Under the pieces are notes generated by a model. That model was given only the letters and a program-made list of their open reading frames with translations. It was not told the origin of the DNA and did not search any database. A program made the translations under genes and the position numbers. A stretch of 63,363 nt of DNA from an uncultured Ignavibacteria bacterium (GTDB lineage Bacteria; Bacteroidota; Ignavibacteria; Ch128b), in assembly GCA_937944105.1 (NCBI GenBank), contig CALDZP010000005.1, positions 1 to 63,363 on the forward strand, written 5' to 3'. Of the stretch, positions 679 to 13,948 are shown piece after piece. Position 1 is the stretch's first letter; every line of letters begins with the position of its first letter.

Positions 679-724
679 TTGTTCTTTTAAATACTTACTC
701 CGAGTTGATAAATCTAAGAAGATT

Positions 725-1008
725 TGATTTTTCTTCGTGAATCTTTGTGATGTCCTTCGTGCTCTTTGTGGTAATAGAAAATTTAACCACGAAAGAACAC
801 AAATAAAAAAACTTTGTGTGTCGTTGTGGTGTACTTAGTGTGCCTTTGTGGTGAGAAAAAATTAACCACGAAGTAACACAAAGGATTACACCAAGGAACA
901 CAAAGAAAAAAAACTTTGTGAACCTTGGTGATGTACTTAGTGCTCTTTGTGGTGAAAGGAATTTTAACCACGAAGGTACACAAAGGATTTCACAAAGGAA
1001 CACAAAGA
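725..1008. repeat. Three tandem inverted-repeat units (CACAAAG / CTTTGTG family)
   Basis: Three consecutive units each have a left arm made of CTTTGTG/CTTAGTG/TTTGTGGT words and a right arm starting TTAACCACGAAG and continuing with ACACAAAG words. The arms lie at about 728-775/782-809, 810-853/862-905 and 913-955/962-1008. Each unit can fold into a long imperfect hairpin. Words recur about every 10-11 bases within arms. The minus-strand open frames here (repetitive Thr-Lys-Ser-Thr-Lys peptides) are by-products of the repeat, not genes. Similar sequences are, from memory, scattered in many environmental bacterial genomes. Confidence 0.85.
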
Positions 1009-1346: not shown

Positions 1347-3770
1347 TCATCGATAAAAGTTATTTATTAAAATTTCATCCGGAATAAAATCACCTGGCAT
1401 TATTATTAAAGGTTTTCCACTTCTTTCCATATTAAATTTTAAAAAATTTATCACCGGTGATAAACCATTGGTAGTTCTTAAAGATAAGGGTAAAAGAGAA
1501 CCCAAATCGATTAATTGAGATTTAGGAAATTCTACAATCTGGTACTCATTCTTATTCAAGTTTGCTTTTATTCTTGCAATTTCAATCGCATCAGATAATC
1601 CACCAAGGACATCCACTAATCCGATTTTAACTGCATCCATACCAGACCAAACTCTACCTTGAGCAACTTTTTCAATATCGTCTTTTGATTTATTTCTTCC
1701 AATCGAAACTTTTGTTGTAAATTCTGAATACATTTCTCTGAACATTTCTTCAATTTTATTTCGTTCTTCATTGGTTAATTTTCTATCAGGTAAAATTATA
1801 TTCAATACTGGTATAATCATTCCGTATCCTAGATCTGCATGTTCACCTCTTTTTACTAAGTCAGTGGAAACACCAACGCTTTCCTTAAAACCTTTGTTAT
1901 AAAACCAGCTACCAATCACACCAATTGAACCTGTAATTGTATTTTTGTTAGCAACAATCGTATCTCCATACATTGATAACCAATAACCACCAGAACCTGC
2001 GACTAAGCCTTGAGAAACAATTACAGGTTTAATCTTTTTTAATTTTTTTATTCCTTCAGCTATAACATCTGATGCCAGTGCATCGCCTCCTGGGGAATCA
2101 ATTCTAAAGACAACTGCTTTAATTGAGTTATCGCTGGAAATTTTCTCTAAATCTTTAATAAGAGTTCTTGCTCGTATTCCTTCGTCCATCGCACAAACAC
2201 CGAGTGCATAAACGATTGCTATTTTTGGTTTTTCGCTCCAGTAGTTATCTTCATTTAATTCTTCTGATTCAATGGTATTATCTTTTACAATTCTTAAGAT
2301 TTCATCCACTTTAGATTTATCAAATAATTTATACCACCGACCAACTGAATCAATTAATCCAATTTCAAGAGCAGATTTTGAATCGAAAATAACATAGTTA
2401 TTAATTAATGAATCTACTGATGCTTTGAGATTCGGTCGTGAGTTTTCTATTTCTTCCTTAATTGTATTGTAGAGATTGTCTACCAATAATTGTCTTTGTT
2501 CCCTATCTGCATCGGACATTTTTTCTCGTGAATAAGTTTCTGCAGCGGATTTATACTTGAAAAATCTAAGTTCATCAAAACCTATGCCTAATTTTTCCAG
2601 AGTTCCTTTATAATAATTACGACCCATCAAAACACCATCAAGAACAATTAAGCCAATTGGATCCATAATTATCTTATCAGCTACAGAAGCAAAATGATAC
2701 AATTTAAGATCAGCGTTGTCTAAAAATATTGTAATTTTTTTATTAGCTTTTTTCAACTCAAGTAATTTATCTCTAAGTTCCCATAGAAAAACGCTTGAGG
2801 ACACAAATCCAGATAAATTAATTTCAACTCGATCAATCTTTTCATCATTTTTAATTTTTTCTAACCTGTCAATTAATTGATAAAAAGATTTTGAATTATC
2901 GAACAATTGAAATTTTTGATATTTAATTTGACCATTTAAATCAATCTGATGAGTTTTTTCTTTAGTGAAAATTTTTGAAAAGATGTTTCTATCATAAGAA
3001 CCAATCCTTAATCCCTGAATGTGATGCTGGAAATCTCCATACCTATTAAAATTAGTTGCTTGAAGAATACTGAAATTTCCAAAACTAAGTTGTACACCAA
3101 ATGTAAAGGATTTTGAATTAAAATATCTTCCAGAAAATTGAATTCCTTCAAATGGTTCAATAACCAATCCAGTACTCCACATTTTACTTTTTGAACCGAA
3201 AAGATTTGAATAAATGTAATCTCCAAATAATGTTATTTTTTCATTTCCAAAAGGTCTTATAGCTAAATCAAGTGCTCCTTCATAGTCCTTATATTCAGGA
3301 TTTGTTGAACCTACAATTCCAAATGAAATAAATTTATTGGGTCGATATAAACTTGATAGTGTAATTAGTTTGTTTATAAATGGAATCTGTGTATTAGATG
3401 TTGCCCATTGATAAGCAAAACCTAATGAAGTTGATTTGTTACCAAGTGAAAATAAAATTTTATAATTATTAATTTTGCCCTGTGAAGGAACATTCTGTAC
3501 ATAATTTGAGAATCCTATATTTTTAAAAGCAACAAATAAACCATAATCATTCAATTTTATATTGTTTTTGTTTTTATTATTCCATAAAAAATAAAAATCA
3601 GGATTTTTAACATAGGTTAAAATTGCAGGATTTTCGAACCCATTCAGTCCAAATCTTAATGCTCCTGGCGAAGTAGAGAAAAGGTTATAATTAACATTAA
3701 AAGGAAAATTATTTTGTGAAAAACCAAGCAATGGAATTAAAAGGACGCTTAAAAACTTAATTAGTTTCAT
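1347..3770 (-). CDS. sppA: SppA-type S49 serine protease with N-terminal barrel-like extension
   Basis: An 807-residue protein with a signal peptide (MKLIKFLSVLLIPLLGFSQ). The second half has two peptidase S49 repeats as in the E. coli 67-kDa signal peptide peptidase. The general-base lysine is K407 in the first repeat (YKSAAE) and the nucleophile is S593 in the second (AGSGGYW), preceded by RIDSPGG. Residues ~25-280 are not part of the usual SppA: they alternate hydrophobic and polar residues with many Gly/Tyr/Phe turns (for example YKILFSLGNKSTSLGFAY), as in outer-membrane beta-strands, so the protein may be anchored in or exposed at the outer membrane rather than the inner one. An AAGGAG ribosome site lies 6-7 bases before the start. 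It is divergent from sixA. Protease identity is firm; the barrel reading is inference. Confidence 0.9.
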   Translation of the reverse strand: MKLIKFLSVLLIPLLGFSQNNFPFNVNYNLFSTSPGALRFGLNGFENPAILTYVKNPDFYFLWNNKNKNNIKLNDYGLFVAFKNIGFSNYVQNVPSQGKINNYKILFSLGNKSTSLGFAYQWATSNTQIPFINKLITLSSLYRPNKFISFGIVGSTNPEYKDYEGALDLAIRPFGNEKITLFGDYIYSNLFGSKSKMWSTGLVIEPFEGIQFSGRYFNSKSFTFGVQLSFGNFSILQATNFNRYGDFQHHIQGLRIGSYDRNIFSKIFTKEKTHQIDLNGQIKYQKFQLFDNSKSFYQLIDRLEKIKNDEKIDRVEINLSGFVSSSVFLWELRDKLLELKKANKKITIFLDNADLKLYHFASVADKIIMDPIGLIVLDGVLMGRNYYKGTLEKLGIGFDELRFFKYKSAAETYSREKMSDADREQRQLLVDNLYNTIKEEIENSRPNLKASVDSLINNYVIFDSKSALEIGLIDSVGRWYKLFDKSKVDEILRIVKDNTIESEELNEDNYWSEKPKIAIVYALGVCAMDEGIRARTLIKDLEKISSDNSIKAVVFRIDSPGGDALASDVIAEGIKKLKKIKPVIVSQGLVAGSGGYWLSMYGDTIVANKNTITGSIGVIGSWFYNKGFKESVGVSTDLVKRGEHADLGYGMIIPVLNIILPDRKLTNEERNKIEEMFREMYSEFTTKVSIGRNKSKDDIEKVAQGRVWSGMDAVKIGLVDVLGGLSDAIEIARIKANLNKNEYQIVEFPKSQLIDLGSLLPLSLRTTNGLSPVINFLKFNMERSGKPLIIMPGDFIPDEILINNFYR

Positions 3771-4564: not shown

Positions 4565-4580
4565 TGGCACAATTTCTGAC
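4565..4580 (+). promoter_or_regulatory. Probable sigma-54 promoter of the pilin-like gene
   Basis: TGGCAC at 4565-4570, five bases, then CTGA at 4576-4579 gives the GG-N10-G spacing of a -24/-12 element; the -12 box is imperfect (GA rather than GC). The predicted start would be about 4591, leaving a ~39-base leader before the ATG at 4630 with an AAGGAG ribosome site. Pilin genes in other bacteria are often sigma-54 dependent, and an NtrC-type regulator lies downstream. Confidence 0.45.
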
Positions 4581-4629
4581 TAAATATTAAGTGATAAAAG
4601 TTGAACTAAAAAAATAAGGAGTAAAAACT

Positions 4630-5013
4630 ATGGGTCAACAACAATTACTCTTAATAGTTATAGGAGTTATTATCGTTGGTATAGCAATAGTAGTTGGCAT
4701 AAATTTAGCCAGTACAAGCGCAAGGAGTGCAAATAGGGATGCAGTTATTGCAGACCTAAACAATATTGGAGCATTTGCCCAACAATATTACCGTAAACCT
4801 ACCGCTCTTGGAGGTGGGGGTAATTCTTTTACTGGTTTTACTATTCCACCATCTCTTGTAACCACGGGTAATGGTACTTACACCGCTACTGTTGGTGCAA
4901 CAGTCGTAACAATAGTTGGTACTGGTACAGAAGTAGGCAACGATGGATCAAACAAAGTTAAATGCACTGCTATTGTTACGCAGGATAATATTACGGTAAC
5001 TATAAACAATTAA
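4630..5013 (+). CDS. Small pilin-like protein
   Basis: A 127-residue protein with an immediate N-terminal hydrophobic helix (MGQQQLLLIVIGVIIVGIAI), then a segment ARSANRDAVIADLNNIGAFAQ resembling the exposed half of a type IV pilin helix, a glycine linker (ALGGGGNSF) and a Thr/Val-rich beta domain. It lacks the usual basic leader and the Phe1/Glu5 of classical prepilins; cleavage after Gly2 would leave Gln-Gln-Gln. A strong AAGGAG ribosome site, a separate promoter and a following hairpin fit a highly expressed structural subunit whose assembly genes follow. No family name can be assigned. Alternatives: a minor pseudopilin or an unrelated anchored protein. Confidence 0.7.
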   Translation: MGQQQLLLIVIGVIIVGIAIVVGINLASTSARSANRDAVIADLNNIGAFAQQYYRKPTALGGGGNSFTGFTIPPSLVTTGNGTYTATVGATVVTIVGTGTEVGNDGSNKVKCTAIVTQDNITVTINN

Positions 5014-5025
5014 AATTATTTGAAG

Positions 5026-5079
5026 GAGAGTAATTCGGAAATAAATTCAGTATTATCTCAATTTTTCTGAATTACTCTC
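5026..5079 (+). promoter_or_regulatory. Long hairpin between the pilin-like gene and the assembly genes
   Basis: GAGAGTAATTC (5026-5036) pairs perfectly with GAATTACTCTC (5069-5079), with further pairing possible inside the loop (GAAA with TTTC). No clean T run follows, so it is more likely an attenuator or 3' mRNA-stabilising structure than a full terminator. It would allow much more pilin message than machinery message. Confidence 0.6.
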
Positions 5080-5108
5080 TTGTAAAATTAAAGTAGGATA
5101 TAAATGTC

Positions 5109-6608
5109 ATGAAAATTTATTGTGGAATTTTTGAAGACGGTCTAGAAATTAAAATTGCATATGTTAAGAAAATGGGTAAAAAGTTATCCATTAAAAAAAT
5201 TGTGTCAGTACCAAGTAACAATTTTGAATTTTCTTATAATTTAAATGCGACAGAAAAAAATAGTAATGAAACTGTTTTAGAATTCAATGAATTTGAAAAT
5301 AATATTCAATCACATACAAATCTAACTGAGATTGTCGAACACTTTCCACTTAAAGATTTAAAATTCATTCCAGTAATTACTGAACCTCAAATTTCATACT
5401 TGGTTTATAATCCTAACTCGACAATAAAAAATTATGATATAAGAAAAGAATTAAAAAAACTTTGGAAAGAAACAACAAATATTGATCATGATGAAAAAAA
5501 GATTGATTTTATTGAATATCGAAACCACTCAATTATTTCTTCTGTTATTCAGGATGAAATTCCTGTTGTGAATGATTTAAAAAGATTGGCTGCCATTTCA
5601 GAAACTAAATCTCTTGACATTCTTTCTTTAAGAAGTGGCGATATCTCTTTTATCAATTATGTTTTGAGATTTTATCATCCCGGAAAAGACGAAACATTTC
5701 TATTGGTTTACATTGGTCTGGATTCAGTCAGATTAATTTTTATTAAGGAAGGTAAAGTTATTCATATAAATAGATATTTAAGTTTGAGTCTAGAACGTCA
5801 AGGCTTGATTAGTTTCCTATCTAGTAAAATAGTATTGGAGATGGAATATGCAGGTATCTCTGAAATTTCAAATATCATTCTCACTGGTGAAGTGAATGAT
5901 GATTTGTTATCATCATTTAAGCAAAATTTTCCATTTATAATGGTTGATTACTTAAATCTTAATTTTTTTAATGTTAATGAATTGAGTGATGATGATAAAC
6001 TAAAACTTCAATCATTTAGTTTTCCATTGCTGGCAGTAATAGATGAAGTCTTTCCTTTTGTTGAGATACGTAAAAATCTTGAAGTACATTCTAAAAGATT
6101 GTCGAAAATTTCCATCATCAAGAAAATCGATTTTGTATCTATAATTCTTTTTATCATTCTTATTGGTTTAATAACCTTTTCAATTGATAACTACCTGAAA
6201 AGAATTAAAAAGTTAGATAACTTAAAAGCACAACTTTTGCACATAGAATCACTTAAGAGTAGCTCTTACGAAGAACTAAAAGAATTAGATATACTCTCAA
6301 AACGTTATGAGACACTAAATAAGTATTTTTTATCTATTAATGAGTTTACTAAAGATAGAATTTGGTGGACAGATGAGTTAATGTCAATTCACTATTTTAA
6401 TCCAAAGAAAAATAAAATGTGGTTAACATCAATTATAATAAATGACCAAAACCCCGCTCAAATTATATTAAAAGGTTTGATGATTGATAGAAAAGTAATT
6501 CCAGATTTTATGAAAATTCTAAAGAATGGAGAATTAAAGAATATATATCTCTATGAAATTAGAGGGAAAAAAATATTTCAATTTGAATTAACAGCAAACA
6601 TTAAATAA
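5109..6608 (+). CDS. PilM-PilN / GspL-like assembly protein (fusion)
   Basis: A 499-residue protein. Residues ~1-330 look like the actin-like cytoplasmic domain of PilM or GspL, with degenerate nucleotide motifs (YCGIFEDGLEIKIAYV near the start; LLVYIGLDSVRLIFI in the middle). One transmembrane helix at about 342-362 (FVSIILFIILIGLITFSI) is followed by a short coiled coil (RIKKLDNLKAQL) and a ~110-residue periplasmic domain, the layout of PilN or the C-terminal part of GspL. It would build the inner-membrane platform linking a motor to a pilus or pseudopilus. It begins a block of six closely packed genes. Assignment rests on architecture and neighbours rather than strong motifs. Confidence 0.65.
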   Translation: MKIYCGIFEDGLEIKIAYVKKMGKKLSIKKIVSVPSNNFEFSYNLNATEKNSNETVLEFNEFENNIQSHTNLTEIVEHFPLKDLKFIPVITEPQISYLVYNPNSTIKNYDIRKELKKLWKETTNIDHDEKKIDFIEYRNHSIISSVIQDEIPVVNDLKRLAAISETKSLDILSLRSGDISFINYVLRFYHPGKDETFLLVYIGLDSVRLIFIKEGKVIHINRYLSLSLERQGLISFLSSKIVLEMEYAGISEISNIILTGEVNDDLLSSFKQNFPFIMVDYLNLNFFNVNELSDDDKLKLQSFSFPLLAVIDEVFPFVEIRKNLEVHSKRLSKISIIKKIDFVSIILFIILIGLITFSIDNYLKRIKKLDNLKAQLLHIESLKSSSYEELKELDILSKRYETLNKYFLSINEFTKDRIWWTDELMSIHYFNPKKNKMWLTSIIINDQNPAQIILKGLMIDRKVIPDFMKILKNGELKNIYLYEIRGKKIFQFELTANIK

Positions 6609-6611
6609 AAA

Positions 6612-7499
6612 ATGAGAAGAAGAAGACGAAGATTTGTTTTATTTGTATTGATTTTTATTACTGCAGCATCGAGCTATTATTTTGTTGAATATTCATATCA
6701 AAAAGAATTGATAGAATTATCAAAAAAATCTGAAAATGAGAACGAAAAATTATTCGATGATAAATCACCAGCGGAATTAATTTCAATACTTCAAGAGAAA
6801 ATAGACTCACTTGAATCAAATATAAAAGTTCAGGAAAAGCGAATTCCCTATTATTCTTCTCCTATTCAGGTTTATGACAGAGTAATTCAAATAATTAATT
6901 TGTTGGATGAAAAATTAGATGTAAATCTCGATAAGCTTTCATCTGAAAATATAAACGATTTTAGAATGGAAAAATTTCAAATTAAAGGGGAAGGAAAATT
7001 TAAATATTTATTCGCACTTATTAACCTTTTCGAAACTTCACCTGAACTTTATAAAATTAACATTAAGGAAATCAAGCAGATTTTTAGTCCTAATAAAGAT
7101 GGTAAAATGGAGGAAAAAGTTTTATTCAATTTTACTTTAGATGCTTTTTATACTCTTAATCCTGAATTCAATTTCGATTCAACTCTATCAAATAAAAATT
7201 TAAGAACTGTTTTTTACATCTCAGATCTTTTTGAGTCATTAATAAAGATGGAAATCCCTTCCAACGAAGAAGGATTATTTGAAGTAGATGGTGCGAAATT
7301 ACTTGCCATTATGCCTGATGCAGTTTATTTGATAGATAAAAAAGGCAACTCATTCACTTTAGCTGAAGGGGATGAAGTATATCTCGGTTATCTTACTAAA
7401 ATTGATTACCAAAACCACTCATGCGAATTTTTACTTAACAAAGGAGGAATTCTGGAAAGAGTATCTTTACAACTTGATGATAAGGAGATCAAAAGATGA
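6612..7499 (+). CDS. PilO-PilP / GspM-GspC-like assembly protein (fusion)
   Basis: A 295-residue protein with a basic start (MRRRRRRF), one membrane helix at ~8-26, a coiled coil at ~30-75 (ELIELSKKSENENEKL, IDSLESNIKVQEK) and a ferredoxin-like region at ~85-180, the PilO plan. The last ~75 residues (VDGAKLLAIMPDAVYLIDKK, then LAEGDEVYLGYLTKID) resemble the small beta domain of PilP or the homology region of GspC, which contacts the secretin. It therefore seems to join inner-membrane alignment and secretin-docking roles in one chain. Three bases separate it from the gene before; it overlaps the secretin gene by four. Confidence 0.6.
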   Translation: MRRRRRRFVLFVLIFITAASSYYFVEYSYQKELIELSKKSENENEKLFDDKSPAELISILQEKIDSLESNIKVQEKRIPYYSSPIQVYDRVIQIINLLDEKLDVNLDKLSSENINDFRMEKFQIKGEGKFKYLFALINLFETSPELYKINIKEIKQIFSPNKDGKMEEKVLFNFTLDAFYTLNPEFNFDSTLSNKNLRTVFYISDLFESLIKMEIPSNEEGLFEVDGAKLLAIMPDAVYLIDKKGNSFTLAEGDEVYLGYLTKIDYQNHSCEFLLNKGGILERVSLQLDDKEIKR

Positions 7500-8710
7500 A
7501 AATAATTTCAATTATAATCTTAACAATCAATTTAATAGTTTTTGGTCAAAGCTATAGAAGTCTCAAAGCTACTTTCTATCCTGACAATGAACATGTAGTT
7601 ACAATCTCAAAAAATGCAAGTGTAAATCAAGCTATAGATATTCTTAGTAAAATTAGTAAACAAACAATCAATAAAATAATTGTTCTCGATCAGGATTTGC
7701 CAGTCCCCGTTGGGATAGAAATTACAAACTTAAATTGGTATAAAGCACTGGAGATTATAGCTAAACTTCACAATTTGGAATTAATTGAAAGAGAGGATTT
7801 TATCAAATTAGTTCCTCAACAAAAATTTTCTGAAATAGAAGTTCCTGATATATTGAAAGGGGTTGATTTTAAGACAAGAGAAGTGACCATCTCAGCGATA
7901 TTTTTTGAACTTGATGTCAATAAAGCAAAAGAAAGGGGAATTAATTGGCGAGCATTATTTTCTAAAGGTGGTGGCAGTGTTGGTATCAGATTTGGTGAAC
8001 CTTCAAGGGATATTTTTGATTGGAATTCATCATCTGATTCAAAATCATTGGATATTGGTGCAACTGGTGATATTAATTTTCTTGGATCAATTGCAAAAGC
8101 CACATCACTATTTAATTTTTTAGAATCTAATCAACTGGGTGAGGTAATTGCAAGTCCACAAATCACTGTAAGGGATAGAGTAAAAGGAGAAATTCAGGTG
8201 GGTTCCGATTTTTCTACAAGGGAAAAAGATTTTGCGGGTAATACAATAGAAAGATTCTACAGTACAGGCACAATAATTAGAGTTACTCCTTATGTTCTTA
8301 AGGAAAATGGTAAAGATTATATTTTGCTGGATTTGAGTGTTGAAAGAAGTTCAGCCATACCGGGACAGATTTCAACTGAGGTTAAAAGAACAAAAGCAAA
8401 TACAAATGTCCTGTTACTCGATGGTGAAGAAACAGTTATTGGGGGATTATTTATAAATGAAGAAAAGAAAGAAAGAACAGGAATACCAGTATTAAAAGAT
8501 TTACCATGGTGGGTTTTTGGAATTAAATATCTCACAGGTAGGGATGTTATTACAAATGCACGAAAAGAATTGATTATTGTGTTGAAAGCAAAATTAAACC
8601 CATCGCTCAACGAGAGAGTTGTTCAAAAAGAAAATATGATCATTGAAAAAAAATTAAATGAATATGATGAGCAAATAGAAAAGTTAAAATTACAATCTAA
8701 GCAGAGATGA
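7496..8710 (+). CDS. Secretin (PilQ/GspD family), short form
   Basis: A 404-residue outer-membrane channel protein with a signal peptide (to about FGQS). Residues ~30-110 hold one short N-terminal domain of STN/N0 type (NQAIDILSKIS, ITNLNWYKALEIIAK). Residues ~125-370 are the secretin core: TREVTISAIFFELDVNKAKE, VIASPQITVRDR, and the family signature TKANTNVLLLDGEETVIGGL followed by GIPVLKDLPWW. The C-terminal ~30 residues are charged and may form a coiled coil. At about 400 residues it lacks the N1-N3 and AMIN domains of most PilQ/GspD proteins. Translationally coupled (ATGA) to both neighbours. The most certain member of the cluster. Confidence 0.92.
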   Translation: MKIISIIILTINLIVFGQSYRSLKATFYPDNEHVVTISKNASVNQAIDILSKISKQTINKIIVLDQDLPVPVGIEITNLNWYKALEIIAKLHNLELIEREDFIKLVPQQKFSEIEVPDILKGVDFKTREVTISAIFFELDVNKAKERGINWRALFSKGGGSVGIRFGEPSRDIFDWNSSSDSKSLDIGATGDINFLGSIAKATSLFNFLESNQLGEVIASPQITVRDRVKGEIQVGSDFSTREKDFAGNTIERFYSTGTIIRVTPYVLKENGKDYILLDLSVERSSAIPGQISTEVKRTKANTNVLLLDGEETVIGGLFINEEKKERTGIPVLKDLPWWVFGIKYLTGRDVITNARKELIIVLKAKLNPSLNERVVQKENMIIEKKLNEYDEQIEKLKLQSKQR

Positions 8711-9189
8711 ACTCGAGTCAATTAATACTACTTTTAGCATCTTTCATAATTTTATCAATGGCGATTTTTATGGTGAATAAGACCACATTAAAATCACGGG
8801 ATGATCGAATTATTGCAGAAAATGAATTGAAGGCAATAACAGAGGCAAAAAATCTTTTTGAGCTTATTAAAAATAAGATCTTCGATGAAAAAATAGTTTC
8901 AATGATTTCATTAAGAAAAGATAGCCTAACAGCTTCTCAAGATTTTGGTCCTGAAAATGAATCCTTTGAGGAATTTGACGATATAGATGATTATCATGGT
9001 TACACAAAGGAAGTGAATCTAGAAAACAATATTAAATACAAGCTAAAAGTGATCGTTTCATATGTAAATGAAAATAATCCTGATATATTAACTTCAGATA
9101 AAACCTTTTATAAATTAGTTCGAATTATTTGTTCAGATAAAAACCAAAATCAAATTTTTGAAATCAAACAAATTTTTTCAGTATGGTGA
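8707..9189 (+). CDS. Pseudopilin-like protein 1
   Basis: A 160-residue protein whose start overlaps the secretin stop (ATGA). It has an N-terminal helix (SSQLILLLASFIILSMAIFM) running into an amphipathic helix (DRIIAENELKAITEAKNLFE) and an acidic soluble domain, the outline of a minor pilin or pseudopilin without a classical prepilin leader. Glu, Asp and Lys are abundant. No family recognised; the role is inferred from topology and position between a secretin and two similar proteins. Confidence 0.55.
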   Translation: MNSSQLILLLASFIILSMAIFMVNKTTLKSRDDRIIAENELKAITEAKNLFELIKNKIFDEKIVSMISLRKDSLTASQDFGPENESFEEFDDIDDYHGYTKEVNLENNIKYKLKVIVSYVNENNPDILTSDKTFYKLVRIICSDKNQNQIFEIKQIFSVW

Positions 9190-9734
9190 TGAATAATCCA
9201 TTATATTTATTGATAAGCGTAATAATAGGAACTTCGATAATTCTTTTGCTGGTAAGAATAAGCACATATGCAAATGAAGAAAACATTGAAGCAATTAAAG
9301 AAGAAATACTTATTAGAGATTTTTATGTTACTCAAGAAATTATTGAACATCACTTAAAAAAAATTGGTTTCAAAATTGGGAATAATTCAATCGTTCAAGC
9401 CGATTCTCAATTGATAAAATTTTTATGTGATGATGACGAGGATGGATTTATTGATACTTTGGAGATCAAATTGGGCAAACCAGCTTTAAATTCTGAAAAT
9501 CCATTAGATTATAACTTATTATTTGTAAAAAATAATGATGAAAAAATAATTACCCCCTCAGGTGTAACAAAATTCAAACTTGAATATTTTGATATAAATG
9601 GAAATCCTGTAAATGAAAATGTTTTTATCAAATCTATACGTGTGATTTTAAGAATGGAATCAGAAGAAAGAATAAATGGTAAATATCTGTATTTCGAAAA
9701 TCATTTTTTAATTAAACCGAAAAATTTAGTTTGA
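9183..9734 (+). CDS. Pseudopilin-like protein 2 (PilW/GspJ-like)
   Basis: A 183-residue protein (181 if the second ATG at 9189, overlapping the previous TGA, is used). The N-terminal membrane helix (PLYLLISVIIGTSIILLLV) continues into EEILIRDFYVTQEIIEHHLKKIGF, then a domain with a DDDEDGFIDTLEIKLG segment and a C-terminal GVTKFKLEYFDINGNPV ... IRVILRME segment. The last part is typical of PilW/GspJ minor pilins, where it forms the core sheet. The DDDEDGFID run could bind calcium, as in some pseudopilins. Supports a tip-complex role. Confidence 0.6.
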   Translation: MVMNNPLYLLISVIIGTSIILLLVRISTYANEENIEAIKEEILIRDFYVTQEIIEHHLKKIGFKIGNNSIVQADSQLIKFLCDDDEDGFIDTLEIKLGKPALNSENPLDYNLLFVKNNDEKIITPSGVTKFKLEYFDINGNPVNENVFIKSIRVILRMESEERINGKYLYFENHFLIKPKNLV

Positions 9735-9743
9735 GGTGATAAC

Positions 9744-10754
9744 ATGGGCAATAAGGTTTTACTTGTTACATTATCAACTTTTTTCATCTTGAGTTCAATC
9801 TTGATGTACATTGGAAAAAAGACAATGGGTATTTCTGATACTCGTAATGATACTTTCAATTCACTTCAAGCTCAATACATCTCAAATTCCGCATTGAATA
9901 TTACTCTAAATAAATTAAGATTTAATAAAAATCTCAGGGGCGAATTTGGTAATATCCCATTGATGGATGGTAAATATTCAGTTATAATCAAAGGTAATGA
10001 TACAGTTACAATTAAAGTAGTAGCAGAATTCTTAAATAAAAAAAGTATTAGTTCTGTGACCACAATTTGGGATAATATAACTATTCCACCAATTAAAGCC
10101 GGTATGTCAATTTCCTCTTCAAACCTTAATTTGAAATTAAACGGGAATATTTTAATTAGTGGTTATGATAAAAATCCAGATGGAACACCTGGTAATGCTC
10201 CAACAGTAAATGGCATTACCGTTGAAAATTATTCAGATAGTATTAGAGTTATTAGTGAAATTCCAAACAATGTTAAACCAAATATTACTGGGTTGGGAGC
10301 ACCTCCGAGTATTGGTGTTAGCCAAAATCCAGCAAATATTTACGAGCTAATAAATCAATATATTCAATCGGCAGATATTATACTTCAATCTGGTACATAT
10401 TCAACTGGCACAGTATTGGGAACACCTGAAAATCCCAAAATTACATACATTGCGGGTAATGCAAATTTTGCAGGTAATGCATCGGGAGCAGGGATTATGG
10501 TAGTTTATGGAGATATGAGCTGTTCAGGAAATTTTACCTATCAAGGTCTTGTTATTGTTTATGGGAATACTGCAATTTCAGCTTCTGCGTCAGGAACTTC
10601 TGCAATTTATGGTTCAATGATTATAATTGGTCCAAGTGTTAATGTTTCAGCCACTGGTTCAGCTGTCATCAACTATTCTTCAAAAGCAATTCAAAATATC
10701 ACTCAAAAGTTAAAAACTTCTAAATTTTTTGTTTCGAATTGGAAAGACTGGTAA
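9744..10754 (+). CDS. Pseudopilin-like protein 3 with repetitive beta domain (PilX-like)
   Basis: A 336-residue protein with an N-terminal membrane helix (LLVTLSTFFILSSILMYIG), a helical stretch (LQAQYISNSALNITLNKLRF), a middle domain and, at ~235-320, a glycine/alanine/serine-rich region with short repeats: AGNANFAGNASGAGIMVVYG, CSGNFTYQGLVIVYG, SASASGTSAIYGSMIIIG. This resembles the right-handed beta-helix seen in bactofilin-like or large PilX-like minor pilins. Being last and largest of the three, it is a candidate tip adhesin or GspK counterpart. Ribosome site GAGGTGA precedes the start. Function not proven. Confidence 0.55.
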   Translation: MGNKVLLVTLSTFFILSSILMYIGKKTMGISDTRNDTFNSLQAQYISNSALNITLNKLRFNKNLRGEFGNIPLMDGKYSVIIKGNDTVTIKVVAEFLNKKSISSVTTIWDNITIPPIKAGMSISSSNLNLKLNGNILISGYDKNPDGTPGNAPTVNGITVENYSDSIRVISEIPNNVKPNITGLGAPPSIGVSQNPANIYELINQYIQSADIILQSGTYSTGTVLGTPENPKITYIAGNANFAGNASGAGIMVVYGDMSCSGNFTYQGLVIVYGNTAISASASGTSAIYGSMIIIGPSVNVSATGSAVINYSSKAIQNITQKLKTSKFFVSNWKDW

Positions 10755-11052
10755 TAAAATTAAATTGCCCCTCCTTTGATATCCATTTTTAACCAATTTA
10801 AACTTAGAAGTTATAAGAATTTATTACTTATATAGTAAATCAACTGGAGTTAAAAGAATTGATTCGAACATAACAATGTTTTTCTTGTTTACTTCAATTT
10901 GACCTGTTTTAATTAAATAATTAATAAACTCAGTTCATAGATTTTATTAAAAAATTTGATTTTAGTTCATATTAATTAGAATTGAGTTTATCACAAGGAT
11001 GAATTAATTTGCAAAAAAATTTTTGAAGAAAAGGAGGGCGAAGGTAAAAATT
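10755..11052. other. Intergenic stretch between pilus-like cluster and regulators
   Basis: No gene and no clear terminator or sigma-54 element. It ends with GGAGGG and AAGG ribosome-like sites before the kinase start. An upstream in-frame TTG at 11023 would lie on top of the GGAGG and is not favoured. Confidence 0.5.
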
Positions 11053-12582
11053 ATGGAAATAAACTTAAATAATAGAATTCTTATCACAGAAGATAAATCA
11101 GACAATGAGCTTCATACTTTTCATATCCCATGTAATTTTTTTGATATTCTTCCTGATATGAGTTTTGTAATTGACTCAAAATGTAATATCCTTCATTGTA
11201 ATAAAGCGGCAAGTGAATTTTTTTCTTTATCAAAGAAAGAATTCATTGGTAAAAATTTTCTTGATTTAATAAGTGATGATAAGAAAGAGGAATTTAAAAC
11301 TAATTTTGAACAGGCAATTAATTACGGTTTAAATCAAAAATTTGAATCAACTTTTATTGCATTTGAACAGAAAAAGTATGTTCAAATTATTTTATCACCA
11401 TTTTTTACAGTAGCGAAGACGAATTTATCGAATCAAGATGATCATCTATGTTTTGTTTTTGCACGAGATATATCTATTCAAAAAGAGAAGGAACTTGATC
11501 TCGTTAGATTCGCAAATGTTGCTGAATATACTGTTAATCCACTTGAAATTACTGATGTAGAAGGAAAAATAATTTATGTTAATCCCGCTTTCGAACGCTC
11601 CAGTGGATATACCCGTGATGAATTGATTGGTAAGAATCCAAATATTTTCAGTTCACATAAACATTCTAAAGACTTTTGGAAAAATATGTGGACGACTATA
11701 AAGCAAGGAAAAGTATGGATTGGAGAAGTAATAAATAAAAGAAAAGATGGGCAATTATTTTATACTGATCTTCTTATATCTCCAATTATTGATAACAATG
11801 GCAAACTAATTGGCTATTTTGGTATTCATCGCGACAAGACTGAGCAGAAGAAGCTCGAACAACAACTTATTCATGCTCAAAAAATGGAAAGTATAGGCTT
11901 GCTTGCTGCAGGACTTGCACATGAAGTGGGTAATCCATTAGCTTCTATTTCATCTCTTGTGCAGGTAATTCAAAGGACAAATAAAGATGAATTCACAAAT
12001 CAGAAACTTGAATTAATTAAAAGTCAAATTAATAGAATTTCAAAAATAATACGTGACCTCGTAAACTTCTCCAGGCAATCGAATTATGAACTACAATCAA
12101 CAGATATTAATAAAGTCTTAAAATCAGCAATTGAGATTGCACGAGTTAGTAAGAAAGCTAAAGGTATTAATTTTGTCGAAGAATATGAACAAGATATTCC
12201 TATCTTATATCTTGTGCCAGATCAATTACAGCAGGTGTTTTTGAATATTTTAATAAATGCAATTGATGCACTGTGTATCGATGCAGATAGTATGAGTTAT
12301 TTTCATCCAAATCCTCAAATAATATCAAAAACATACAAAGACCCCAATCGGGTTTTTATTTCAATTACAGATAATGGCATTGGAATTCCTGAATCTGCAA
12401 TTGAAAAAATTTTTGATCCATTCTATACTACCAAAAAAGTAGGTGAAGGAACAGGTCTCGGATTATGGGTTAGTTACAATATTATTAAAAGTTTTCAAGG
12501 AGAAATTCAGGTGTCTTCAAGTGAAAATGAAGGTACTACTTTTACAATTGTTCTCCCAATTAATTTAGATACAATAGAATAA
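11053..12582 (+). CDS. PAS-PAS sensor histidine kinase (NtrB/PilS-like, soluble)
   Basis: About 510 residues from the ATG at 11053, chosen because AAGG at 11041-11044 is correctly spaced. Two PAS domains (about 25-140 and 155-270, the second ending KDGQLFYTDLL), then HisKA with phosphoacceptor H290 in LAHEVGNPLASIS, and a HATPase with NAIDA, DNGIGIP and GTGLGL boxes. The HEVGNP form of the H-box is typical of NtrB-like kinases that partner NtrC-type regulators. There are no membrane helices, so it should sense an internal cue. Four bases separate it from its evident partner. Likely controls sigma-54 promoters such as that of the pilin-like gene. Confidence 0.9.
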   Translation: MEINLNNRILITEDKSDNELHTFHIPCNFFDILPDMSFVIDSKCNILHCNKAASEFFSLSKKEFIGKNFLDLISDDKKEEFKTNFEQAINYGLNQKFESTFIAFEQKKYVQIILSPFFTVAKTNLSNQDDHLCFVFARDISIQKEKELDLVRFANVAEYTVNPLEITDVEGKIIYVNPAFERSSGYTRDELIGKNPNIFSSHKHSKDFWKNMWTTIKQGKVWIGEVINKRKDGQLFYTDLLISPIIDNNGKLIGYFGIHRDKTEQKKLEQQLIHAQKMESIGLLAAGLAHEVGNPLASISSLVQVIQRTNKDEFTNQKLELIKSQINRISKIIRDLVNFSRQSNYELQSTDINKVLKSAIEIARVSKKAKGINFVEEYEQDIPILYLVPDQLQQVFLNILINAIDALCIDADSMSYFHPNPQIISKTYKDPNRVFISITDNGIGIPESAIEKIFDPFYTTKKVGEGTGLGLWVSYNIIKSFQGEIQVSSSENEGTTFTIVLPINLDTIE

Positions 12583-12586
12583 AACT

Positions 12587-13948
12587 ATGAAAACAAAAAT
12601 TTTACTTGTTGACGACGAAGTAATTTTAAGAGAAAATATTGCCTTAATTTTAAGACAGGAAGGTTATGAAGTTGTCGAAGCTTCTAATGGAGAAGAAGCA
12701 TTTGAAAAGTATTTGAATGATAAGTTTGATATTTTGATTTCTGATATTGAGATGCCAAAAATGAAAGGCATCGAATTATTAGAAAAAATTTCCAGAATAG
12801 ATCCTCATTTGATTTCAATATTTATCACAGCTTATGGTTCTTTGGAGACGGCAATAGCTGCTCTCAGACTTGGAGCGAGTGATTATATTTTAAAACCTAT
12901 TGATTTTGACGAATTGATCTTAAAAGTAAAGAGATTACTTGAATTCAGACAACTGGTAATTGAAAATCAACTTTATCGAAGAGAATTACAAAAGCAATAT
13001 TCTTTCGATAAAATTATTGGTAAAAGCCCTGCAATGCAAAAAGTTTTTGAAATGATTAAATCAGTAGCGGAAACAAATAGCAGCGTTTTGATTACTGGTA
13101 ATAGTGGTACAGGGAAGGAACTGGTAAGTCGAGCAATTCATTATAATGGACCAAGAAGAGATAAACCTTTTGTTGTTGTAAATTGTGGGGCAATTCCTGA
13201 AACATTAATTGAAAGTGAATTATTTGGTCACAAAAAAGGATCATTTACTGGAGCCATAAAGGATAAAGAAGGATATTTTCAAGCTGCCAATGGAGGTACA
13301 CTCTTTCTTGATGAAATCAGTGAGATGCCTTTACAATCCCAGGTTCGTTTATTAAGAGCAATTGAACAAAAAGAAATAATTCCTGTTGGGTCGTCAACTC
13401 CTATTCCTGTTGATGTGAGAATTATTTCTGCAACAAATAAAAATTTATACAAAGAAGTCGAAGAAGGAAGATTTAGAAGTGATCTTTATTATAGATTAAA
13501 TGTTGTTGAAATCCATCTACCATCCTTAAGTGAACGTGTGGAAGATATACCATTATTGGTTGAATATTTTGTTGATAAGTACCGTAAAGAAATGAATAAG
13601 AACATTAAAGGAGTTGATGTTGATGCTATGAAAGCATTGATGAATTATACATGGAGAGGAGAAGTTAGAGAACTTGAAAATGTTATTGAACGAGCAGTAA
13701 TTTTTTGTAAAGGTGAATATATCACCATTAATGAATTACCTTCTTACATCATTTCGGATCGAGTACCTGATTTAAATCTTGCGTCTGAATTCAAATCGCT
13801 TGAAATTGCAGTCAATGAATTTGAGAAAGAATATATTAGAAAAGCTTTAGCACAAAATGATTATGATAAAGAAAAAACTGCACGAATGTTAGGAGTTAGT
13901 ACCGCAACACTTTATAGAAGAATTAAGGAATTAAAAATACTCGCCTGA
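12587..13948 (+). CDS. NtrC-family sigma-54-dependent response regulator
   Basis: 453 residues: receiver domain (phosphoacceptor D53 in ISDIEMPKMKG), AAA+ domain at ~140-380 with Walker A GNSGTGKE, sigma-54 contact loop KGSFTGA (Ser for the usual Ala), Walker B TLFLDEIS, and a Fis-type helix-turn-helix at the end (KTARMLGVSTATLYRRIKEL). The usual WPGNVREL of the sensor-II region reads WRGEVREL here, an odd change. It forms a two-component pair with the kinase upstream. By position it probably activates the pilus-like cluster, comparable to PilR or AtoC/ZraR-like regulators. Confidence 0.92.
   Translation: MKTKILLVDDEVILRENIALILRQEGYEVVEASNGEEAFEKYLNDKFDILISDIEMPKMKGIELLEKISRIDPHLISIFITAYGSLETAIAALRLGASDYILKPIDFDELILKVKRLLEFRQLVIENQLYRRELQKQYSFDKIIGKSPAMQKVFEMIKSVAETNSSVLITGNSGTGKELVSRAIHYNGPRRDKPFVVVNCGAIPETLIESELFGHKKGSFTGAIKDKEGYFQAANGGTLFLDEISEMPLQSQVRLLRAIEQKEIIPVGSSTPIPVDVRIISATNKNLYKEVEEGRFRSDLYYRLNVVEIHLPSLSERVEDIPLLVEYFVDKYRKEMNKNIKGVDVDAMKALMNYTWRGEVRELENVIERAVIFCKGEYITINELPSYIISDRVPDLNLASEFKSLEIAVNEFEKEYIRKALAQNDYDKEKTARMLGVSTATLYRRIKELKILA

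Follow-up and report, generated by a model that had tools for sequence, protein, structure and literature searches.

A probable second assembly module of a type IV pilus lineage with leaderless pilins in Ignavibacteria

Gene cluster and platform proteins

Analysis of a 63,363-nucleotide stretch of DNA from an uncultured Ignavibacteria bacterium (hereafter the window) revealed a cluster of pilus assembly genes at positions 4630-10754, which we consider quite likely to be a second assembly module of a type IV pilus lineage with leaderless pilins and without a prepilin peptidase. The cluster comprises seven open reading frames, all on the + strand, confirming the sequence-only reading of a pilin-like gene followed by six tightly packed genes that include a secretin and three pseudopilin-like proteins. 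Because the gene order and the families recur in related genomes, the arrangement is not due to chance. ATPase, PilC and peptidase genes were not found within the 4630-10754 stretch. The features of the cluster and its flanks are as follows.

4565..4580, + strand: candidate sigma-54 (-24/-12) promoter TGGCACAATTTCTGAC, with a TGGCA(C/T) element and an imperfect -12 GC
4616..4621, + strand: Shine-Dalgarno sequence AAGGAG, 8 bases 5' of the pilin ATG, read from the sequence
4630..5013, + strand: predicted major pilin, 127 residues, leaderless (MGQQQLLLIVIGVIIVGIAIVVGIN), N-terminal helix 2-55 and four-stranded sheet
5109..6608, + strand: predicted PilM-PilN fusion, 499 residues, assigned by fold (PilM) and profile (PilN)
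6612..7499, + strand: PilO-containing platform protein, 295 residues, assigned by the PilO profile; C-terminal domain PilP/GspC-like by appearance only
7496..8710, + strand: secretin of PilQ/GspD type, 404 residues, PF00263
8707..9189, + strand: predicted minor pilin 1, leaderless (MNSSQLILL...), Met1 and Gln5 invariant among relatives
9183..9734, + strand: predicted minor pilin 2, leaderless (MVMNNPLYLL...)
9744..10754, + strand: predicted minor pilin 3, 336 residues, leaderless (MGNKVLLVT...), with a large Gly-rich C-terminal part
11023..12582, + strand: PAS histidine kinase, candidate PilS-like sensor (Pfam PAS, HisKA, HATPase_c)
12587..13948, + strand: NtrC-type sigma-54 activator, candidate PilR-like regulator (Pfam Response_reg, Sigma54_activat E=9.4e-74, HTH_8)

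The first platform protein (5109-6608) was folded with AlphaFold2 from an alignment of 29 relatives (mean pLDDT 80). The protein comprises a PilM-like domain (approximately residues 1-330), a membrane helix and coiled coil (342-430) and a PilN-like periplasmic domain, with the PilN-like part spanning approximately residues 342-499. Its best solved neighbours in Foldseek were Pseudomonas PilM (5eox, E=2.7e-14), Myxococcus PilM and the Thermus PilM-PilN complex (2ych, E=4.3e-11), and GspL/EpsL (1yf5) matched with E=8.3e-7. A profile search matched the C-terminal part to the Myxococcus PilN of 3jc8 (E=8.3e-10). Together, the PilM fold match and the PilN profile match indicate a single predicted chain combining PilM and PilN, as had been proposed from the sequence. 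The second platform protein (6612-7499) had been read as PilO plus PilP. Its PilO half was recovered in the profile search (Myxococcus PilO of 3jc8, E=7.9e-5, positions 19-165), whereas the PilP half gave no significant match; the C-terminal ~100 residues resemble the PilP/GspC homology region by eye. The secretin (PF00263, E=2.8e-24) was the only one of the seven genes recognised outright by Pfam; GspD and PilQ models scored it nearly equally, both below cut-off. Two secretin copies with PF00263 above cut-off are present in the genome.

Motor locus and duplication

Searching the window's genome (2.74 Mb, 96 contigs, 99.4% complete) located the motors, which the sequence-only reading had placed elsewhere or supposed replaced, on another contig, C51. 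The gene order there is pilin-PilC-PilB-PilT-PilMN-PilOP-PilQ, accompanied by response regulators, and the genome's only PilC, PilB and PilT-like ATPase (one each) all lie on this contig. PilB matched T2SSE PF00437 above cut-off (E=5.3e-104), and the PilB model was the best of all models for it (E=1.1e-130, 437 bits against a curated cut-off of 675). The PilT-like ATPase matched pilT_fam (E=1.2e-94) with 317 bits, just below the cut-off of 319, and PilC carries two PF00482 domains above cut-off. Because PilB and PilC scored well below the NCBIfam curated cut-offs and PilT just below, the three proteins appear to be divergent members of their families. C51 ends just past the pilin in the window's genome; the motor loci of relatives (L068, L070) carry their own minor pilins.

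Two observations concern the motor genes of the lineage more widely. PilC (L007:12153-13541 and its relatives) has ~115 residues before the first T2SSF domain and, at ~460 residues, exceeds the PilC/GspF models, with a repeated N-terminal motif visible by eye. The leaderless pilus locus of other classes of the phylum (L119-L122, L132, L137, L138) holds an extra conserved gene of ~167 residues (KFLKEPPLLLKNFHYEDVLEFL) between PilB and PilT.

Near relatives also carry two loci (L008/L013, L009/L012, L010/L011, L068/L069, L070/L071). Phylogenetic analysis of PilMN placed both copies of the window's family (f1) in one clade (support 100/99), in which the window copy forms a long branch. Given this shared clade, the window cluster is a duplicate specific to the family; it diverges fast and comprises pilin-PilMN-PilOP-PilQ-minor pilins but no motors. 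The proposal of a streamlined system intermediate between the type IV pilus and the type II secretion system (T2SS) was not supported: the fused platform appears to be the normal state of a clade-wide system with PilB, PilC and PilT, and the motor-less duplicate is confined to one family. A full separate set, named in the sequence-only reading as an observation that would refute it by making the cluster unrelated, does exist in the genome, but it is homologous and the cluster is related to it.

Protein identity between the window and C51 is 27% for PilMN, 34% for PilOP and 91% for the pilin. Such near-identity of the pilins (window 4630-5013 and L007:13759-14142) beside platform proteins at 27-34% may reflect gene conversion or strong joint constraint.

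Leaderless pilins and the search for a prepilin peptidase

Alignment of the major pilins (n=33) revealed that they begin MG(Q/N)QQ-LLLIV, with Met1, Gly2, Gln4 and Gln5 invariant. A further 91 pilin reads, which include some genes seen in two loci, largely agreed with this pattern: 84 start MG(Q/N)QQ and have no candidate start codon upstream, six start MGTQQ or MGSQQ, and a single read extends further upstream. Nearly all of the ~130 major-pilin reads start MG(Q/N/T/S)QQ without an alternative start upstream. For almost all major pilins an in-frame stop lies 0-14 codons upstream with no start codon between, and a longer leader hidden by a wrong choice of start was rejected on this ground. A Shine-Dalgarno sequence lies shortly 5' of the ATG in most pilin genes of the clade, including that of the window (AAGGAG). 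Among the class relatives read, the three minor pilins likewise have no upstream start that could supply a leader, and the N_methyl motif was not found in the window's genome. Members of the pilin family were detected in 76 of 218 genomes of the phylum.

Counting Met1 as residue 1, QLLLIV would overlie the classical ELLIV and Gln5 would overlie Glu5. AlphaFold2 modelling of the major pilin (pLDDT 86) gave a 54-residue N-terminal helix followed by a four-stranded sheet, a predicted architecture that is that of type IV pilins.

The prepilin peptidase, which the sequence-only reading expected to lie elsewhere in the genome or to be replaced, was not found elsewhere: neither Peptidase_A24 (PF01478) nor A24_N (PF06750) had a match in the window's genome, and the pilins have no leader. 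The PF01478 model detects A24 in 12 of 14 control genomes, archaea included. It had no match in the five other members of the window's family that were searched, one of them ~100% complete in ~10 contigs; PilMN and PilC are present in all six members, A24 in none. Across the class, the PilMN fusion is present in 131 of 245 genomes and A24 above cut-off in 12 of 245; A24 was not found in 119 of the 131 genomes with the fused system, nor above cut-off in any of the seven single-contig class genomes carrying it. At the level of the phylum, 130 of 395 genomes have the fusion (E<=1e-10), 15 of them with A24 and 115 without A24 above cut-off. Borrowing of a peptidase from a second system was rejected for the window's genome, where no A24 gene was found at all.

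As a positive control, the regions around A24 were read in ten genomes (eight of the class and two of other classes). All ten contained a GxGD peptidase together with one or more canonical prepilins (e.g. GFSLTELMVVLVIIG, MKTLHKKFALQLGFSLTELMVVLVIIGVLVLLALPKLL), and in most of these genomes the two lie within 1.5 kb of each other. N_methyl prepilins occur in 12/12 class genomes with A24 compared with 6/233 of the others (Fisher p=2.5e-16, not corrected for kinship). This co-occurrence indicates that leader and peptidase go together as parts of a canonical system of their own, and that the leaderless system appears to exist without them. One genome without A24 above cut-off, G179, encodes a canonical-looking PilC/GspF (C1:2518637-2519617; T2SSF 95 bits) in which a stop codon interrupts one domain, and the genome has perhaps lost a canonical system.

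Interpretation and comparison with known systems

We think it likely that Ignavibacteria and other classes of the phylum contain a branch of type IV pili built from unprocessed leaderless pilins with no prepilin peptidase, and that in one family a duplicated platform, secretin and tip module shares a single motor set. In this system, the pilin and the three minor pilins would be inserted directly into the inner membrane through the helix at their N-termini. The initiator Met, or Gly2 if Met is removed, would replace the residue that PilD would expose, and Gln5 would occupy the place that Glu5 has in classical pilins. The PilM-PilN fusion and the PilO protein would connect the cytoplasmic motor to the secretin. 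We infer that the two modules share the C51 motor and have almost the same subunit, with PilB, PilC and PilT of C51, the genome's only copies, powering the window module as well as the C51 module. With its own minor pilins, its secretin and the neighbouring PAS kinase and NtrC regulator, the window module would produce a variant of the same pilus whose tip is probably different.

In each of the four orthologous second clusters (window, L008, L009, L069), a TGGCA(C/T) element lies 65-70 bases 5' of the start of the pilin gene, although the -12 element GC of the candidate sigma-54 promoter is imperfect. The PAS kinase neighbour is conserved in L008, L009, L069 and L071. The adjoining PAS kinase and NtrC activator together with the conserved element suggest PilS/PilR-like sigma-54 control.

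Several points weigh against the interpretation as a leaderless type IV pilus. All of the evidence comes from sequence. The identity of the pilin rests on architecture, synteny and the long helix, and its model had no significant neighbour in the PDB by Foldseek (best type IV pilus match E=1.5). Because the uncharged N-terminus gives only a weak positive-inside signal, the N-in topology is assumed. For the C-terminal ~100 residues of the second platform protein, nothing significant was found for PilP/GspC identity by profile search, Pfam or comparison with E. coli HofP and GspC; the comparisons with single E. coli sequences are insensitive, since they likewise failed to match the PilM part to HofM or GspL, and such negatives weigh little. 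The case for motor sharing depends on counting genes in draft genomes. Finally, an unrelated peptidase could remove Met-Gly or more.

That last possibility has a specific form, which we consider unlikely: a non-A24 peptidase would remove Met-Gly as a minimal leader ending in the usual Gly, exposing Gln. Gly2 is invariant in the aligned major pilins, like Gly-1 in classical prepilins, and a review (PMC4471445) describes a shortened leader in some systems and a critical Gly. Classical leaders nevertheless have 6-26 residues according to the same review (PMC4471445), and no conserved Gly is present at this position (MNSSQ, MHSNQ, MNHPI, MAYWL) in minor pilins 1 and 2, whose homology assigns them to the same filament. 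The clusters read showed no gene with evident features of a peptidase, although no systematic search was made. It is very unlikely that A24 genes are present but were missed because genomes are incomplete or the family has diverged beyond the model. Most genomes are drafts, and six class genomes have an N_methyl prepilin without an A24 match; however, the model succeeded in the control genomes and in scattered class members alongside canonical prepilins, single-contig genomes with the system had no match above cut-off, and the pilins offer nothing to cut.

The remaining alternatives concern the cluster itself. That it is a T2SS-like secretion system forming a pseudopilus, rather than a pilus module, appears quite unlikely. 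The equal secretin scores for GspD and PilQ, the presence of PilM and PilN in one chain, which is the GspL arrangement, and the succession of three minor pilins of ~160, 183 and 336 residues, like GspI-J-K, would all fit such a system. However, the fold search put PilM ahead of GspL by seven orders of magnitude in E-value, the PilN and PilO profiles match proteins of the Myxococcus type IVa pilus, and the motor locus contains a PilT-family gene, whereas a T2SS has no retraction ATPase. GspC, GspM and GspO had no Pfam match at cut-off (the best T2SSM E-value was 0.026, with matches below cut-off in 3 of 30 members); the E. coli GspC and GspM sequences gave no match either, in a comparison that is insensitive in general. 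We regard a decaying duplicate without function as extremely unlikely. The long branch would fit decay, as would the lower PilMN identity among copies of the window-type module (39-60%) than among those of the other module in the same species (59-85%); yet the reading frames are all intact and tightly packed in several species, gene order, regulators and the TGGCA element are conserved, and the window pilin has kept its near-identity to that of C51.

In textbooks, type IV filaments are defined by the cleavage of a class III leader by prepilin peptidase, and pilin-finding tools build on this step. If our interpretation is true, a large clade without enzyme and leader would show that prepilin cleavage is dispensable, against the view of a universal requirement. 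Such a clade would also provide a natural system for testing the roles of the new N-terminus and of Glu5, and the second module would offer a naturally occurring example in which two platforms share a motor or compete for it. We found no description of leaderless type IV pilins, or of pili without prepilin peptidase, in the literature outside subscription papers and preprints.

Comparison with the type IVa pilus of Myxococcus and Pseudomonas revealed as shared features PilB and PilC, a PilT-family ATPase, homologues of PilM, PilN and PilO, a secretin, a long-helix pilin, minor pilins and PilS/PilR-like regulators. Unlike in that pilus, PilM and PilN are fused here, PilO is part of a longer protein, the window's family has a second motor-less module, no prepilin peptidase was found, no pilin carries a class III leader, and Gln5 replaces Glu5. 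The system shares with the T2SS the secretin, pseudopilin-like minor proteins and a platform protein that, as in GspL, joins an actin-like cytoplasmic domain to a PilN-like periplasmic one; it differs in its PilT-family gene, in having no GspC, no significant GspM and no GspO match, and in a fold nearer PilM than GspL. The so-called T2SS of Bacteroidetes groups with type IVa pili (Denise et al., PMC6668835). MSHA pilus loci also have no prepilin peptidase gene, but they always occur in genomes with another system from which a peptidase could be borrowed (Denise et al. 2019, PMC6668835), whereas no A24 was found genome-wide here. The type IV filament genes of Nanoarchaeota are archaeal, and leaderless pilins are not described for them in the available portion of the review (PMC4471445). 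The Melioribacter genome paper reported pilT, pilQ, pilB and pilC and did not report pilA and pilD (PMC3534657), which agrees with a leaderless, peptidase-free system and would be explained by it; a clade without enzyme and leader would also explain why such pilins were overlooked.

Two further observations concern the flank of the cluster. The gene at 1347-3770 of the window encodes an SppA-type S49 peptidase whose long N-terminal extension resembles an outer-membrane barrel, and the same neighbour is found in L008 and L069. The open reading frame at 695-1003 (- strand) is non-conserved and has a self-repeating translation (LSTSPRFTKFFFF / LSTPQRHTKFFY); it is probably a short intergenic DNA repeat and not a gene.
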